Made by a program: the position numbers and the translations under genes. The notes beneath the pieces were generated by a model, which searched no databases, was not told where the DNA came from, and worked only from the letters and a program-made list of their open reading frames with translations. A stretch of 64,000 nucleotides of DNA from the NCBI GenBank assembly GCA_903939735.1, contig CAJAIA010000023.1:62001-126000 (forward strand), given 5' to 3'. The stretch is from an uncultured Ignavibacteria bacterium. GTDB lineage: Bacteria > Bacteroidota > Ignavibacteria > Kapaibacteriales > Kapaibacteriaceae. This document shows positions 14,386 through 50,840 of the stretch, piece by piece (the stretch's first letter is position 1; each line of letters opens with the position of its first letter).

Positions 14386-14462
14386 GTTCTAACTCTATCG
14401 GCATGGAACTTCCCTGCCTAGCTAAATGGGAAGGCAGAGAAGACGGCGAATATACGGAATGG

Positions 14463-14470
14463 TACATTTG
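14463..14470 (+). promoter_or_regulatory. Bacteroidota-type -7 box of trmB (TACATTTG)
   Basis: A perfect match to the TAnnTTTG -7 consensus, followed by C. Only seven bases separate it from the trmB ATG at 14478. Transcription normally begins about that distance downstream, so the mRNA would be leaderless or nearly so. Confidence 0.65.
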
Positions 14471-14477
14471 CAGAACT

Positions 14478-15203
14478 ATGGATCGACGCATCAACGATAG
14501 TCCGGAGATTAATTGGGCCGCCTACCCTATGCCACGGGTGCGCCACCACGTGAACTCCCAAGCCTATCTCCCAGCCTCCCAACACCACATTTTACCCACA
14601 TGGTACCCGCCGGTACGCACCGAGGGCGAGTGGGCCTCCTGGTTCGCAAATGGACGCACAGCGGACGTGCTAGACGTGGGCTGCGGACGTGGCGCGTTCC
14701 TGATGCGCCATGCGTTGGCCTTCCCAGAGCTCAATATTCTCGGACTCGAGGTGCGCCAAATCCTCACCGAGTGGATTGGTGGCGTGGTCGCGGGTGAGCA
14801 CCTGGGCAATGCCCACGCGGAATGGTACTCGATCGCAAATGGCCTGGATTGGATTCCCGAGGCCTCGGTTCAGTACGCGGTGTATTTGTTCCCCGATCCG
14901 TGGCCGAAGAAACGCCACCATAAGCGCCGAGCTTTTTCCGAGGAATTTCTCGGTATGCTCCACCGCGTCCTGGTGCCAAGGGGCAAGCTCTGGCTGGCTA
15001 CCGACCGCGAAGATGTGGATGCCTACCAACGCGAGGTCCTGGCTAATTCGCGCTTCTTTCAGCTTCGCGAGGTCGATGAGGTTACTCCGTGGCCCTTCCC
15101 GTTCGCAACCGATCAGCAAATGTTTTGTGATGCCAAAGGCATCCCCTACGTAACGTACTACGCCGAACGGATCGATGAGCGCTCTCAACCTGCTGGTGCC
15201 TGA
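14478..15203 (+). CDS. trmB: tRNA (guanine-N7)-methyltransferase
   Basis: It methylates N7 of G46 in the variable loop of tRNA using S-adenosylmethionine. 241 residues from MDRRINDSPEINW; an ATG at 14403 upstream would place the promoter inside the gene. DVGCGRGAFLMRHA is the SAM-binding motif (about residues 64-77). YLFPDPWPKKRHHKRR is the diagnostic TrmB signature. The stop lies inside the start of aat (29 bp overlap), so the two are co-translated. Confidence 0.95.
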   Translation: MDRRINDSPEINWAAYPMPRVRHHVNSQAYLPASQHHILPTWYPPVRTEGEWASWFANGRTADVLDVGCGRGAFLMRHALAFPELNILGLEVRQILTEWIGGVVAGEHLGNAHAEWYSIANGLDWIPEASVQYAVYLFPDPWPKKRHHKRRAFSEEFLGMLHRVLVPRGKLWLATDREDVDAYQREVLANSRFFQLREVDEVTPWPFPFATDQQMFCDAKGIPYVTYYAERIDERSQPAGA

Positions 15204-30072: not shown

Positions 30073-30950
30073 AATGTCATGCTTTCCACGGTCAACCCTG
30101 ATGCATCACACATGTCGATCTTGAGAGCACCATTTGACAGGACGTGCAGTTCAGCGAATCCACCCGCGTCGTGAAACGCCTTCGTGTGATCTCCACGACG
30201 TGACGGACGTGTTCCTCCGCCTGCACCCGAGACCAGACAGCCGAACGCATCTGATGGGTTCTTGATTCCCTGCAAATCATGGTCGTGACCAGACGTGTAG
30301 AGTCGAACCTTATGCTTATCGAGAAGTGGTTTCACATGTGTAATCAAGAACGCTGAATCTCCGTAGTGACCGTAACTCCGCAGTGGATGATGTCCGGCTA
30401 CAATGTTGACTGTGGCCTTCGACGCTGCAAGTGTCTCATCGAGCCATGCGAGCTGCTTCTTCCATCCGTCCTGCGTTTGCATGAGCGCAGTTGTGTCGAT
30501 GCCTGTAATACCAAGCGACGTCGAAGAAGTTACAGGCAACGTCGTGGACCATGTCCTGCCGGGCATATTCCATTGACGATTGTTCTTGCTGTAGGCAACC
30601 TGTGCGTCGACATTTCCCCGGTGATCATGATTACCTAGGATTGCCCACCATGGAACATCAATTCCCGCGTAGATCGATGTGTATTTCGACCCCCATTGCT
30701 GGTCGTCAGCAGAATCCACCCCGCTCGGATAAATGTTGTCGCCAGTGCTGAGGATGATGGCCGGTGGCACGCCACTCTTGGCGATGCGGTTACGCATTCC
30801 TTGCGCTACGCGCCGTTGGAGCTTCCCACCTGTACCCCAATCGCCGATCACATAGATCGACGACGCACCCATCCCAGACGATGCAAGCCCCCTGAGGGGT
30901 CCGACCGTGAGACCAAGTGCAAGCGTGGTGAGGAATTGTCGGCGAATCAT
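30069..30950 (-). CDS. Tat-exported purple-acid-phosphatase-like metallophosphoesterase
   Basis: 293 residues. The N-terminus IRRQFLTTLALGL fits a twin-arginine signal, so the folded metal enzyme is probably exported by Tat. All metal motifs of the ACP5 (tartrate-resistant acid phosphatase) type are present in order: VIGDWGTGG, LSTGDNIYPSGVD, WAILGNHDHRGN, VAGHHPLRSYG and YTSGHDHDLQG. It likely hydrolyses phosphomonoesters outside the cytoplasm. The IgGFc-domain gene overlaps its stop by four bases, so the two are co-translated. It is divergent from the SpoU methylase gene, with 27 bp between starts. Confidence 0.92.
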   Translation of the reverse strand: MIRRQFLTTLALGLTVGPLRGLASSGMGASSIYVIGDWGTGGKLQRRVAQGMRNRIAKSGVPPAIILSTGDNIYPSGVDSADDQQWGSKYTSIYAGIDVPWWAILGNHDHRGNVDAQVAYSKNNRQWNMPGRTWSTTLPVTSSTSLGITGIDTTALMQTQDGWKKQLAWLDETLAASKATVNIVAGHHPLRSYGHYGDSAFLITHVKPLLDKHKVRLYTSGHDHDLQGIKNPSDAFGCLVSGAGGGTRPSRRGDHTKAFHDAGGFAELHVLSNGALKIDMCDASGLTVESMTL

Positions 30951-30957
30951 AGGCCAG

Positions 30958-30965
30958 CAAAGTAC
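30958..30965 (-). promoter_or_regulatory. Degenerate -7 box (GTACTTTG) before the phosphatase gene
   Basis: It keeps the TTTG half of the TAnnTTTG consensus, followed by C, but lacks the TA. It lies seven bases before the ATG at 30950, the same spacing as the perfect boxes of trmB and the 44223 gene. It is a weak call. Confidence 0.3.
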
Positions 30966-34143: not shown

Positions 34144-35315
34144 AACCACGCCAGCGGCGTACCCAGTGCAAGCAGGAACACCAATACGGCATAGAACGCG
34201 AGCTTCGCACGACGCTTCGTTTCCTCACTCGCCGACGATCGCATAAAGGCGTCGATCGCCCACACAATGCCGAGTGTGGCGCACATGATCAGAGCCATCA
34301 CACCAAGACCTTGCTCTAGTGTGAGCGCGCGATAGCGCGAACGTGCAATGCCGTCCCACCATGGTGTGCCCCATAACATCACAATGTGAATCACATAGAT
34401 GTACAATGCACGACGTCCGAACATCATGTACCAATGATGGAGTGGACGTGTCCACCGCGCGAGATGATAACTCGCACCGAATACAAGGAGCACTACACCG
34501 ACACGACTCATAAAGGTGGTCGTGCTTGCAGGCGATCCAAAGAAGTCTGTGTGGAAGCTCGACTTCCAGATTGCCATGTTGACGAAGTACTCGACAGCAA
34601 CGACAGCTGCACCAAGTGCGGGAATGCCATACGCCATCATAGTTGTTCTGCGCTCAGGCGTGCACGACCACAAATACGATCCCACGGCAACGCCCAGAAA
34701 GAGGTACGCTGCAAAGGGGGCAAGTGGAAACATGCTCCACTGCGTGAAGCCGATGTACGGGGCGAGTGGCATTGGCATCCACCAGGCATTTGCTAGGTCT
34801 GATGCCCACGGTGTTACAAGCAACACTGCACCAGCAGCAAGAGCAGCCACCTTGCCAAGATGCTGCACCGACGTGGTGCGTCGTAGCAACACGGTAAGAA
34901 TCAGCATCGCTGCACCTGTGAGATGCAAGATGTTCACCGACAGAAACTGCGGCCATGCAGCAGCGTCGATAAATGGTAGATCGATCAGGCGATTCGCGGG
35001 GAAATGCATCAGATAGCCAACACCGATTATCGTGAGTGCCCACCGCATGCGTCGCTGGAGAATGTCTTCGCGTACATGTCCATCCGCTGTACGCTTGGCA
35101 GCGAATACGTGCACAACGCCCGATACCATCAGGAACAATGGCGCCGTTACACCCCGAAGCGCATGCCACCTACTCCATGGGAAGACGGTGACGTCGATGA
35201 AGCTCTGTGACACGAGCGCGTCAAGGACGTGACCCTGCATCATGAGCAACATGGCCACGAACCTCGCGAGGTCCAGCGCAATCAGGCGGTCACGGGAATG
35301 GTCGTTCGAACTCAT
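34140..35315 (-). CDS. Multi-pass membrane acyltransferase (DUF1624 / HGSNAT-like)
   Basis: 391 residues from MSSNDHSRDRLIALDLARF. About ten TM helices follow, with the family opening DRLIALDLARFVAMLLMMQG and GVTAPLFLMVSGVVHVFA. Such proteins resemble heparan-alpha-glucosaminide N-acetyltransferase and acyltransferase_3 enzymes, which acetylate surface sugars across the inner membrane. FGRRALYIYVIHIVMLW near the C-terminus is also typical. The substrate is unknown. A near-consensus -7 box (GAACTTTG, 35322-35329) sits six bases before the start. The gene diverges from the CrtI-like gene. Confidence 0.86.
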   Translation of the reverse strand: MSSNDHSRDRLIALDLARFVAMLLMMQGHVLDALVSQSFIDVTVFPWSRWHALRGVTAPLFLMVSGVVHVFAAKRTADGHVREDILQRRMRWALTIIGVGYLMHFPANRLIDLPFIDAAAWPQFLSVNILHLTGAAMLILTVLLRRTTSVQHLGKVAALAAGAVLLVTPWASDLANAWWMPMPLAPYIGFTQWSMFPLAPFAAYLFLGVAVGSYLWSCTPERRTTMMAYGIPALGAAVVAVEYFVNMAIWKSSFHTDFFGSPASTTTFMSRVGVVLLVFGASYHLARWTRPLHHWYMMFGRRALYIYVIHIVMLWGTPWWDGIARSRYRALTLEQGLGVMALIMCATLGIVWAIDAFMRSSASEETKRRAKLAFYAVLVFLLALGTPLAWF

Positions 35316-35368
35316 ACGTGGCAAAGTTCGTGAAACAACCCTCACATCGGAACGCAACGACCTAGGCG

Positions 35369-41092: not shown

Positions 41093-43450
41093 TTAAAAGC
41101 GGAATCGCAGGCCAACATTCAACCCAAATCGTTGCGCCGTCCAGTCGCCGTCGCTCGTCATTGACGACATCCACCTCGTGTACATCGCTTCTGCGAAGAG
41201 TGATGCGCGGAAGGTTATAGGATACGAAAAGCCAAGTCCGCCGTACACGCCAACATTAAACGTCGTGAGTGAGCTCAGGCCATCGTTCTGTACGTCTTGC
41301 GTGCGCTCACCACCCGGATATGTCCAGTTCGACGGACGTAGGATAGTGCGCTGGATATCTGTACTTGTGCCAAGCAGCATTGTTGCCTGCACACCCGTTG
41401 ACAGGTAGAAGTAGCGATGTGGGAACCACTCGATTCCAGCACCAATCTGGACGAGCGGCGATGTAACACGTAGCGTTGTCGCCTCTTGATAGGAAACCAC
41501 ACGGCGTGCGATCGAATCATAGATCGGCGTAACAGTGCTATCTGGCGCAAGGAGTGTTCCTCCCACGGATGTTACTCCGAGTCGTGCGTTGAGCACCAGG
41601 TCCTGCGTAACACGACGTCCTACAAGTGCACCACCACCGACGAAGGAACCAACCGAAGCCTGATTGAATGATGTCTGCGCGACATTTACCGATGGCATGC
41701 GCACATCGACATCATGGAACATTGTGCCAGTTGAGAAGAATGCTCCGACCATCCATGCCCCTTCCGAAGCACACATGACGTCGGACCCCTCATTGAGCAT
41801 GTATGTGTAGCGCTCGCTGCGACTATCGAACACGTAGCAGATCGTTACATCACTTGTGTTACCGGCAACATCTTCAGAGCGCAAGACAACCCGTCCTGAC
41901 TGTCCACCAACGGACTGTCGAATCCGGACACCGACTTGCGGAGCTCCTTCGTCGACCTTTGGGATCTGTGCTGTTAGTCCATCAGATGCCAGAACTGAAA
42001 TCTTGCGAAGCCCCTTATCCGTTGGTCGATCGTCGCGAATCGTCACCATGTAATCATCGCGCATACGTTTACCATCGGCTACCGGAGGCAACGTATCGAC
42101 GAGCGCTTTCAGTTCGAGGAATGACTGTCCGGCCATATTCCCATACGCATCATAAGCGTCCGCCTTAAATCCGAAGCCGTAGGAGTACAATCCGAACGGC
42201 GTTTCACTACGGATCACATGCGAGCCGAACGGAATCGGGACTTGGGCGATCGAGTAACGACTTTCGCCGAGCACGCTAAACGTAGCCGAATCAATCTTCC
42301 GTCCGTTCAGCTTGATCTGTGTGATCGAGCTCGTCGGTGCTACAAGATTGATGTAGTGATGCCAATCACCACTAATCGGTGTAGCGATGCGATACTCATT
42401 GAGGAACTGCTGCGTTGGACTCACCAGGATCATCATCGGATCGCCTACGCTATCGCCATTCTTAAAGCCCTGAGCAAACTGTGCGACCAGCACTGGCTTG
42501 TCGGCAGTGATCTGCACGTGGCGCGACACGTTGAGGTTCTCGTAGAATTCGCCAGCGCGCATCACTGCAACAAGACGTGAGTCTTCGAACACCTTTGTCT
42601 GGTCTTGCGATGCAATCACACGGAAGGTGTACTTGGACCGTTCCTTGAGCATGCCCAAGTAGTAGTGCTTTCCCCATGCACTCACAGGTGGCAGTTGCTC
42701 GACGAGGTGGTTACATGCATCAATCTTCGGTGGCACGTAGGCGCAGTTATGTCCGCTGAAGACAGCGATGTTCTTGTTCGACGTGATCAATGTTCCGGTC
42801 AAATCGCACTGTCCGATTGACTCCCATCGCGCCCCTACACTGTAGACATCGCCCTTGCGAAGGCGCACGGAAAACGGCACGCCCGCTGGACGTCCCGTTG
42901 ATGTCGTAACTGAGGGCGTAATGGTAACGTCGGTTTCATCTTCTGTTGCAATCACCGAAAGTGCCGACAGCAGATCTGACGAAAGCTTCGTGTAACCCAC
43001 AGCGCGGTACTCTTTGCCTAACACTTGAATCGGCAGACCCAAGAACGTGTCTGTCGTTTGATAGCGGCTGTTCAAGCCATACACACTCACCGTGGTATCG
43101 GCAGTAACGTGTACGGCAAGACGCTCCGGTTGTTCAGACAGGCGCAGCTGTGCTCGTGCAGGAATCTGCACTGGCACCACTGCATTTGCGCGAATGGTAA
43201 TCGTATTGTCGTAGTTCAGCTCTTCGATCTGAATACGCACGGTAGCATCATAGCTACTCGTAATGAAAAGCTGAAGTCGAAGATTCTCCTGATTGCGGCC
43301 ATCACGTTGCGCAGCTTCACGAAAATTCTTCATGAAGACCAACCAGAACTCACGTCCTTCAGAGTTCTTCGTTATCACTTCAGGATCACCGCACAGGGCA
43401 GTCGTTGCGACTGATGCAAGCAGCATGAGAACCAGGAGGGCGCGCATCAT
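41093..43450 (-). CDS. IgGFc-binding domain fused to a C-terminal outer-membrane beta barrel
   Basis: 785 residues. Signal peptide about 1-20. Residues 25-450 form the IgGFc-binding N-terminal domain: EGREFWLVFMKNF, TVSVYGLNSRYQTTDTFLGL, AVFSGHNCAYVPP and GSHVIRSETPFGLYSYGFGF. A short Ig-like part follows (to about 560). From about residue 575 there is a new beta-barrel region (FVGGGALVGRRVTQDLVLNA, FPHRYFYLSTGVQA, NVGVYGGLGFSYPITF), ending in GLNVGLRFRF, a classic outer-membrane end. There is no T9SS domain here. The paralogue at 27052 has one instead. The start overlaps the stop of the T9SS cargo gene (ATGA). Confidence 0.85.
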   Translation of the reverse strand: MMRALLVLMLLASVATTALCGDPEVITKNSEGREFWLVFMKNFREAAQRDGRNQENLRLQLFITSSYDATVRIQIEELNYDNTITIRANAVVPVQIPARAQLRLSEQPERLAVHVTADTTVSVYGLNSRYQTTDTFLGLPIQVLGKEYRAVGYTKLSSDLLSALSVIATEDETDVTITPSVTTSTGRPAGVPFSVRLRKGDVYSVGARWESIGQCDLTGTLITSNKNIAVFSGHNCAYVPPKIDACNHLVEQLPPVSAWGKHYYLGMLKERSKYTFRVIASQDQTKVFEDSRLVAVMRAGEFYENLNVSRHVQITADKPVLVAQFAQGFKNGDSVGDPMMILVSPTQQFLNEYRIATPISGDWHHYINLVAPTSSITQIKLNGRKIDSATFSVLGESRYSIAQVPIPFGSHVIRSETPFGLYSYGFGFKADAYDAYGNMAGQSFLELKALVDTLPPVADGKRMRDDYMVTIRDDRPTDKGLRKISVLASDGLTAQIPKVDEGAPQVGVRIRQSVGGQSGRVVLRSEDVAGNTSDVTICYVFDSRSERYTYMLNEGSDVMCASEGAWMVGAFFSTGTMFHDVDVRMPSVNVAQTSFNQASVGSFVGGGALVGRRVTQDLVLNARLGVTSVGGTLLAPDSTVTPIYDSIARRVVSYQEATTLRVTSPLVQIGAGIEWFPHRYFYLSTGVQATMLLGTSTDIQRTILRPSNWTYPGGERTQDVQNDGLSSLTTFNVGVYGGLGFSYPITFRASLFAEAMYTRWMSSMTSDGDWTAQRFGLNVGLRFRF

Positions 43451-44223
43451 TTCATCACCGTCACAGGGTGATAGTACGTTCCCTCATCGGTCGTGATTGT
43501 TACCACGTACGCACCAGCTGCAATCTCCCATGCAATCACGTTGAGGTCGATCGCATTCTCTCCAGCCGTTGCCTCCATTGGAGCAACACTCGTAACGATA
43601 CGACCTTGATATGTGCGAAGAGCGCAGCTTACCGTTCCGGGGGCACGCATTACGAACACCACGCGAGTGCGATCACGAAACGGATTGGGATACGTGCCGG
43701 TAATACCCTGCGTAATGGTATACCCACCACGTGAGCCACCACCACGACGCACTTCGCATTCGTTTGCGGCGAGATCGAGGACGGGTACATCGTTGATCGC
43801 GATAGAGTCTACACCAAGCGCACCAATAGAGTCGGTTCCCAGCACACCCTGCACATCCAAGGCCACGAGTGTATCGTTGGTGACTCCGACGCTGAATGCA
43901 CATCGAATCGTGACATACGCGCGCGTTGAGGATTCAATCACTGGCTCGGAACGTTGTGGCTCCGCGCATCGAATGGCGTACGTTTCAGATCCTCGTGCAC
44001 CGATGATTTGCATAACGCTTGGGTTGTAGCGTATCGTAATTGCAATATCACCACCTTGTGGAAGACTGCCAGTAATAGCGATACGTGCTACCGAACCTGG
44101 CTCAAGGAGAAGTTGCGTAGGCACATTCGCTTCTGCACCTATCGTATACTGGAAGGTACCAGCAAGTACGACGAGTACAATGATGAGGCGGTGCAAGAGG
44201 TGATACGACAGCGGTGTTTGCAT
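43447..44223 (-). CDS. Small T9SS cargo protein
   Basis: 258 residues. Signal peptide with HRLIIVLVVLAGTFQYTIGA. Residues 35-150 look like a cohesin-type beta domain (GGDIAITIRYNPSVMQIIGA). A Gly/Arg linker (RRGGGSRGG) leads to the C-terminal sorting domain (TYPNPFRDRTRVVFVM, then AAGAYVVTITTDEG). It is first in the seven-gene unit. The promoter box is seven bases upstream of the ATG, which suggests a leaderless transcript. The function is unknown. Confidence 0.83.
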   Translation of the reverse strand: MQTPLSYHLLHRLIIVLVVLAGTFQYTIGAEANVPTQLLLEPGSVARIAITGSLPQGGDIAITIRYNPSVMQIIGARGSETYAIRCAEPQRSEPVIESSTRAYVTIRCAFSVGVTNDTLVALDVQGVLGTDSIGALGVDSIAINDVPVLDLAANECEVRRGGGSRGGYTITQGITGTYPNPFRDRTRVVFVMRAPGTVSCALRTYQGRIVTSVAPMEATAGENAIDLNVIAWEIAAGAYVVTITTDEGTYYHPVTVMK

Positions 44224-44230
44224 GCAACGA

Positions 44231-44238
44231 CAAATATA
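44231..44238 (-). promoter_or_regulatory. Bacteroidota-type -7 box of the seven-gene unit (TATATTTG)
   Basis: A perfect TAnnTTTG match on the minus strand followed by T, seven bases before the ATG at 44223. Same spacing as for trmB. Confidence 0.65.
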
Positions 44239-46262: not shown

Positions 46263-46270
46263 TATTTTTG
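46263..46270 (+). promoter_or_regulatory. Bacteroidota-type -7 box of prfA (TATTTTTG)
   Basis: A perfect TAnnTTTG match followed by T. It ends three bases before the GTG start at 46274, so the predicted transcript has no leader. Confidence 0.55.
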
Positions 46271-46273
46271 TGC

Positions 46274-47350
46274 GTGGTAGAACGCATACACGCCCTCATC
46301 GATCGATTTGCCGAAGTCGAACAGTCGCTTAACGACCCATCCGTCGTGAACGATCCACGATTACTCCGCGAAGCATCACGCGAATACAAGAGCCTCCTCC
46401 CGATTGTAACGGCCGGACGTCTGTACCTGCGTGTGCTCGATGAGCTCCGCGAGAACAGAGCGCTCATTGCCGATTCCGCAACCGATCAGGATATGCGCGA
46501 CATGGCGTATGAGGACTGTCGCGCGCTCGAAGAGCGCAAGGATGCTATCGAGGCAGAACTAACGGTGTTGCTGATTCCACGCGATCCGAATGATTTCAAG
46601 AACTGCATCATGGAGCTCCGTGCTGGCACGGGTGGTGATGAAGCGGCTCTCTTCGTAGGCGATCTGTTCCGTATGTATCAGCGGTTCTGTGAGCGTCGTG
46701 GGTGGACCACAGAGGTGATCGATATCACGGAGAGCGAACGCGGCGGCTTCAAGGAAATCACCTTCGGCGTCAATGGCGACGAGGCCTACGGCGTGCTGAA
46801 GTACGAAAGCGGCGTGCACCGCGTGCAACGCGTACCGGAGACCGAGACGCAAGGACGTATCCATACGTCGGCAGCTACAGTAGCGGTTCTGCTCGAAGCA
46901 GAGGAAGTGGACGTACAAATCAATGAGAGCGACCTCCGCATCGACATATTTCGGTCAGGGGGCAAGGGCGGACAGAACGTTAACAAGGTTGAAACGGCAG
47001 TACGTATCGTTCACAACCCTACTGGTATCGTCGTTCAGTGTCAGGACGAACGCTCGCAGCTGAAGAACAAGGACAAAGCGATGAAGGTCCTTCGCGCTCG
47101 TCTGTATGAACTTGAGCTCGAAAAGCAGCAGGCAGCTATTGCGGGCGCACGCAAGTCAATGGTTCGATCTGGTGATCGCTCCGAAAAGATTCGTACCTAC
47201 AACTGGCCACAAAATCGCGTCACAGATCATCGGCTGGAAGGTGATGCGAAAAACTACCCGCTGCAGGGTGTGGTCGACGGCGATCTGGAATCCATCATAA
47301 CGGCTCTTCGTGTAGCCGATCAGGGCGACGACGGTTCATCGTCGCGATAG
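46274..47350 (+). CDS. prfA: Peptide chain release factor 1
   Basis: It recognises UAA and UAG and triggers peptide release on the ribosome. 358 residues from GTG at 46274; TTG at 46268 is less likely since it lies in the promoter box. Coiled N-terminal domain; the core has [19 protein letters not shown], and [20 protein letters not shown] carries the catalytic GGQ. The codon-recognition PxT motif is not read as the standard form: [18 protein letters not shown] includes the PET triplet (P-E-T), a known RF1 variant of PAT/PVT. Confidence 0.97.
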
Positions 47351-50419: not shown

Positions 50420-50459
50420 GAGGTTCAATCAGCGAAAATAGGCAGTATTTTAGCAGCCT

Positions 50460-50840
50460 ATGACGCACCGCCTCGTTCTTATGCTCTCCGCAATCCTCAT
50501 GATGTTCGCCATCTTCGGTCTGGTGATGTGGATTGGCGCTATCGAAGGCGAAAATGAGAAAGCTGCCTACGGCAACATGATGCTCTGCTTTGTGATGTCG
50601 GCACTCATGATCATTACGCTCATCGTTGGCATCCGGATGCGTGCTTCGATGAATCTTCGCATCGAGAATCTGTTGACGGAGATGTTTCAGCGTGAAGGCT
50701 CCGTTCAAGCTACGTCGTTTGCCGAGCGCATGGGTATCTCCCTCGACGACGCACGCGATGTGCTTGATAAGCGCTCGCGCGATCGCGGTTGGTTGCGCAC
50801 AGAGTATGCGCAGTACGACGCGCGTTACGTACAAGGGTAA
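50460..50840 (+). CDS. Small membrane protein with a cytoplasmic winged-helix-like tail
   Basis: 126 residues. Two TM helices: about 5-26 ([20 protein letters not shown]) and 40-62 ([19 protein letters not shown]). The tail from residue 70 ([20 protein letters not shown], then [20 protein letters not shown]) looks like a small helix-turn-helix fold with charged surface. No family was recognised. It is 6 bp upstream of the GT2 gene and likely co-transcribed. A one-mismatch -7 box (TATTTTAG, 50446-50453) ends six bases before the ATG. Confidence 0.75.

Follow-up and report, generated by a model that had tools for sequence, protein, structure and literature searches.

Leaderless mRNAs that arise because a promoter core element precedes the start codon by only a few bases are known from Deinococcus-Thermus (PMC12340547), and Deinococcus is the closest working analogue of the locus reported here. 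The two systems differ in their box, which is TANNNT of the standard sigma-70 type there and the Bacteroidota box TAnnTTTG here, and in the kind of evidence, as the arrangement of Deinococcus, which applies to about one third of the genes of D. radiodurans, has been tested by experiment (PMC12340547) whereas our case is built from sequence. The same logic, in which a gene counts as leaderless if a promoter signal precedes its start codon by about 10 bp, underlies the survey of Zheng et al. (PMC3160421), who used TANNNT as the signal and predicted such TA-led genes in one of 37 Bacteroidetes/Chlorobi genomes (2.4%); according to the same source, leaderless genes are frequent in Actinobacteria. 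Bacteroidota mostly do without Shine-Dalgarno sequences (PMC6847099, PMC9723704). Flavobacterium psychrophilum and Bacteroides thetaiotaomicron share the box type of the phylum, and a minority of their mRNAs is leaderless or has a very short leader, namely 5.5% leaderless of 890 CDSs in the former (PMC9723704) and 3.7% of 5′ UTRs under 10 nt in the latter (PMC7366714), and in F. johnsoniae 87% of the leaders are longer than 10 nt (PMC6847099). In these published maps the abutment of promoter and start codon is rare, and because leaderless mRNAs are few in Flavobacterium, leaderless translation has been set aside as an explanation, as far as the cited passages go (PMC6847099, PMC9723704). Among the literature matches listed, none connected Kapabacteria with leaderless mRNAs and none reported TAnnTTTG abutting start codons beyond the percentages given above. 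The arrangement as such is known from Deinococcus, Actinobacteria and a minority of Bacteroidota mRNAs; what is new is a strongly affected lineage with an unusually clear two-mode distribution.

The window, i.e. the whole stretch of 64,000 nucleotides that was analysed, contains three perfect -7 boxes of the Bacteroidota sigma-A (sigma-ABfr) promoter directly before genes. The box TACATTTG (14463..14470, plus strand) is followed by the seven-base linker CAGAACT and the ATG at 14478-14480 (together 14471..14480, plus strand), and the 5′ end predicted from the Flavobacterium offset would fall inside this segment. The gene, trmB (14478..15203, plus strand, 241 aa), encodes a tRNA (guanine46-N7)-methyltransferase-like protein (Pfam PF02390, E 3.4e-28), which also matches NCBIfam TIGR00091 with an E-value of 1.6e-26, yet under the curated cut-off. 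Its nearest named homologue, with 90% identity, belongs to a MAG labelled Candidatus Kapaibacterium sp., and MAGs labelled Ignavibacteria come next; on this ground the lineage is referred to as Kapabacteria here. Upstream of trmB a genus-conserved TATATTCG at 14447-14454 (minus strand) may be the promoter of a divergent secDF gene. The second box, TATATTTG (44231..44238, minus strand), ends seven bases before the ATG at 44223 of a gene (43447..44223, minus strand, 258 aa) for a protein with a C-terminal T9SS type A sorting domain (NCBIfam TIGR04183, 29.4 bits, cut-off 23), for which a Pfam search gave no match. The third, TATTTTTG (46263..46270, plus strand), ends three bases before the GTG at 46274 of prfA (46274..47350, plus strand), the gene for peptide chain release factor 1 (NCBIfam NF001859 and TIGR00019, both above their cut-offs). 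All three are read directly from the sequence, and the spacings of seven, seven and three bases given in an earlier note on this DNA are correct. The same note listed weaker boxes with spacings of seven, six and six bases, which are also right; all three, however, deviate from the consensus. These are GTACTTTG (30958..30965, minus strand; TA-n-TTTG with the spacer one base short) before the ATG at 30950 of a metallophosphoesterase gene, GAACTTTG (35322..35329, minus strand; one mismatch) before the ATG at 35315 of an acyltransferase-domain gene and TATTTTAG (50446..50453, plus strand; one mismatch) before the ATG at 50460.

In order to place these boxes into the context of the genome, which comprises 2.47 Mb in 45 contigs, we used a sample of 857 kb (about 35% of the genome, window included, 54% GC), for which long contigs were picked so that the sampling is not random. 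Genes were called via codon usage with the box left out (639 genes, 640 on a rerun), and the start codons behind all gap counts stem from this home-made caller. The gap is the number of bases between the final G of TAnnTTTG and the start codon, and in the counts on called genes boxes with gaps of 3-7 and 21-60 are referred to as near and far, respectively. Perfect TAnnTTTG as such is not enriched in the window (9 seen vs 13.5 expected from shuffles), but three of the nine lie 3-7 bases before a called start where 0.018 would be expected with 51 called genes (P ~1e-6). Among the 640 genes of the sample 33 carry a box at 3-7 bases, one at 8-20 and 47 at 21-60, compared to 2, 4 and 4 with the reversed box GTTTnnAT as control; scrambled boxes gave no spacing peak near starts in this sample. 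The near gaps of 3, 4, 5, 6 and 7 bases occur 6, 17, 3, 4 and 3 times, so that the mode is 4 and the gap-7 examples of the earlier note represent the edge of the distribution. No called start of the sample was found at gaps of 0-2, where the transcript would lose part of the AUG. From 46 occurrences of TAnnTTTG-N3-7-ATG, 31 coincide with called starts and five more with alternative in-frame starts, although called starts make up 1.7% of all ATGs (P 4e-44 for the excess); with N8-20 as spacer this is the case for one of 32. The whole genome holds 141 matches to TANNTTTGN{3,9}ATG vs 64 to the reversed pattern, and 100 with N3-5 vs 19 with N11-13. Near genes, which account for 5.2% of all called genes, start with ATG in 31 of 33 cases (about 89% for all genes), which is no clear preference for AUG, and near boxes precede 17/168 genes having a divergent neighbour at least 30 bases away vs 6/189 operon-internal genes. 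The genome-wide search for an enriched box-start spacing that the earlier note had proposed is strongly positive, and its reading as leaderless or near-leaderless mRNAs, with the transcription step predicted, is supported by this enrichment and by the conservation among orthologues described below.

Near and far boxes have similar flanks with a G before the box and a pyrimidine followed by a purine after it, and therefore both classes look like one promoter type. A -33 TTTG element was not evident before near boxes of the family genomes; at leadered boxes TTG is slightly frequent at a distance of 23-24 bases upstream, which is not seen for near boxes, and the -33 element is also described as weak in F. 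johnsoniae (PMC6847099). In F. psychrophilum the box occupies positions -12 to -5 and transcripts start at the fifth base after it (PMC9723704), and 4 or 5 bases separate box and transcription start in F. johnsoniae (PMC6847099). The mode of 4 equals the offset mapped in these two species. From the observed spacing we infer the position of the transcription start and, with it, the mode of translation: if RNA polymerase starts about five bases past the final G of the box, a gap of 4 would let the transcript begin on the A of AUG, and gaps of 5-8 would place the 5′ end 1-4 bases upstream of it. For trmB and the 44223 gene with gaps of 7-8 this would result in a short leader of about 3-4 bases, not in a strictly leaderless mRNA. 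In both situations the promoter core element places the predicted 5′ end at the start codon or only a few bases away from it, and it is highly probable that the boxes are ordinary sigma-A type -7 elements abutting start codons and that they would yield leaderless or near-leaderless mRNAs. As a leaderless mRNA cannot carry a Shine-Dalgarno sequence or any other leader signal, the ribosome would have to recognise the 5′-terminal start codon itself. Where this box lies 21 bases or more upstream, leadered mRNAs would arise, with leaders of about 17 bases or more.

A rather unlikely but serious alternative is that transcription in the host lineage starts already 2-3 bases after the box, which would lead to very short leaders of 2-6 bases instead of none. 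In 111 leadered promoters of the family a pyrimidine-purine step is present at bases 1-2 after the box and purines are depleted at bases 4-6 (66% and 58% purines at bases 2 and 3, 34% at base 5), and such leaders are conceivable for this reason. The offset of 4-5 bases mapped in two Flavobacterium species argues against this earlier start, as does the fact that the optimum for leaderless transcripts would then be gaps of 1-2, yet no called start is located there. With either transcription start the mRNAs would be leaderless or close to it.

Another alternative is that the true start codons lie further downstream than the called ones, in which case the genes would be ordinary leadered ones. In-frame ATG or GTG codons are indeed present within codons 2-20 of 13 of the 33 near genes, seven of them at codons 7-14, and their first codons score slightly lower as coding (0.061 vs 0.108 and 0.129). 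The remaining 20 near genes, however, possess no in-frame ATG or GTG in codons 2-20, and the sharp peak at 4 refers to distances from the called start. Furthermore, within the genus the alignments of trmB and of most prfA orthologues begin at residue 1 and the start is kept, which makes mis-called starts improbable. Of the 23 family genomes, 22 have a perfect box at trmB that precedes an in-frame start by 3-8 bases, namely by 7-8 within the genus and by 3-7 elsewhere in the family, while the sequence of the linker varies. Two genomes (G202 and G203) show an extra ATG one base after the box, in two others (G086 and G200) the counted start is a GTG and an ATG follows the box directly, and the exception is G101 with the closest ATG 23 bases from the box. 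The longest open reading frame at trmB opens at 14403, 25 codons 5′ of 14478, but judged by the box and the orthologues 14478 is the likelier start. Thus, the box could be of practical use in pinning start codons that gene callers might misplace.

The conservation at prfA bears on the idea that the motif beside the start codon is a translation signal and not a promoter, for which its position, just where a ribosome-binding signal would be expected, might speak. Of 23 prfA orthologues 22 are informative, with gaps of 3-5 in 14 (box ending in TTTG or TTCG) and a single orthologue each at 7, 9 and 11, the latter two with ATG. In the other five the conserved block moves to 26-31 bases. TTCG replaces TTTG in four of these orthologues. 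Other genes carry the motif between similar flanks 21-60 bases upstream, and near boxes prefer divergent genes; together with the mobility at prfA this renders a translation signal very improbable. The GTG start of prfA is kept in 20 of the 22 informative orthologues, mostly 3-5 bases after the box, and such a leaderless GUG codon at the start of a translation factor gene may have a regulatory role. For the 44223 gene, whose orthology is uncertain with 23-30% identity only, a perfect box is located at 6-9 bases in 13 of 21 informative orthologues and at 11 in one, and is absent in seven. Motifs related to the degenerate boxes are kept 4-7 bases before the start in most genus members: TACTTTG of the 30958 box lies seven bases before the ATG in 10 of 11 genomes; GAnnTTTG of the 35322 box lies 4-6 bases before a start beside the match in seven of 11 loci, with two more at starts 35-38 codons upstream and two not found; and a TAnTTTnG-type box corresponding to the 50446 box lies 5-6 bases before the ATG in eight of 11 genomes, with TAATTTGC there in the other three. 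Between genera the class of a gene is less stable, as the six near genes of the host genome with an orthologue in the G101 sample are near in two, far in one and boxless in three cases, and with this weak gene-by-gene conservation trmB represents a favourable case. A chance meeting of a short AT-rich word with ATG, which the lacking overall enrichment in the window might suggest, is already refuted by the excess of near-box ATGs on called starts and by this conservation.

We also compared the host genome (G000) with others of its family (f1) and of the phylum. In the same pipeline three further f1 genomes gave 10/0/14 (G101), 14/2/20 (G059) and 3/0/5 (G136) boxes at gaps of 3-7/8-20/21-60. All four f1 genomes together have 60 near boxes, 3 at 8-20 and 86 far ones, and both the near peak (P 1e-25) and the void at 8-20 (3 of 149 boxes vs 33 expected, P 5e-13) deviate from uniform placement. 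Intermediate leader lengths being nearly absent points to two discrete initiation modes, and the void is consistent with the ribosome being engaged in two separate ways. Outside the family, G109 (same order, other family, 28% GC, 84 kb only) gave 1/0/27 and G115 (family f19, outside the class) 23/23/16, with the peak again at 4 and a leadered mode of 13-20. The leadered boxes of G115 cluster at these 13-20 bases and not at 21 or more, and the minimum leader may thus differ between lineages. Among genes having a perfect box no more than 110 bases away, near genes make up 33/89 in G000, 10/30 in G101, 14/43 in G059, 3/9 in G136, 1/29 in G109 and 23/71 in G115. We conclude that about one third of the host genes with a perfect box nearby give leaderless or near-leaderless mRNAs, as far as their 5′ ends follow the predicted offset. 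Put differently, judging by the box about one third of the host's recognisable promoters lie so close to the gene that the mRNA is expected to start at the start codon or just a few bases upstream of it. The published values of 3.7-5.5% (PMC7366714, PMC9723704) are lower, but the measures differ, since ours refers to genes that have a perfect box no further than 110 nt away and is not a share of all mRNAs.

A pattern survey of 198 phylum genomes showed more matches with N3-5 than with N11-13 in all eight f1 members (ratios 2.4 to 5.5) and a ratio of about 1 (0.9 to 1.3) in seven genomes of the order that belong to other families. The tabulated subset of 105 genomes is not random, as it includes all f1 members and at least one genome per family and omits repeats of large families. 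In this survey the near excess reaches its highest and clearest level in f1 (751 near vs 219 far matches in eight genomes), but a restriction to f1 was rejected as f32, f29, f30, f19, f16 and f24 also display a clear excess. GC content as the sole cause of the leaderless share was also rejected: across the 105 genomes a GC proxy shows a weak correlation with the near/far ratio (rho 0.30) and a negative one with the near excess per Mb (rho -0.24), and the GC-rich families f9, f20 and f37 among them have no near excess. On balance we favour, with some reservation, the broader view that promoter-bearing genes initiate in two discrete main modes, of which the leaderless one is the first, both in this Kapabacteria family and, as a separate matter, in certain other families of Bacteroidota, that leaders of about 4-16 bases are selected against and that genes such as prfA have switched modes repeatedly. 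If true, this would contradict the Flavobacterium- and Bacteroides-based view of leaderless initiation as marginal in the phylum. In the host lineage a sizeable share of promoters appears leaderless.

A 16S rRNA tail with CACCTCC was detected in 3 of 23 family genomes, not including G000, which we tentatively take as unassembled rRNA genes and not as absence of the tail. About 10% of the operon-internal genes in the sample and window have a Shine-Dalgarno-like motif before the start vs 0.5-2% at control positions; this exceeds the 1-2% cited for Bacteroidia, although the two measures differ. Variants of the box were also noticed in the sample and window. TAnnTTCG, with one mismatch, occurs seven times 3-5 bases before first genes vs 1.4 expected, and for TAnnTTGC/T, which resembles the SM5 motif of F. 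psychrophilum, 12 of 24 upstream matches are located at gaps of 3-7.
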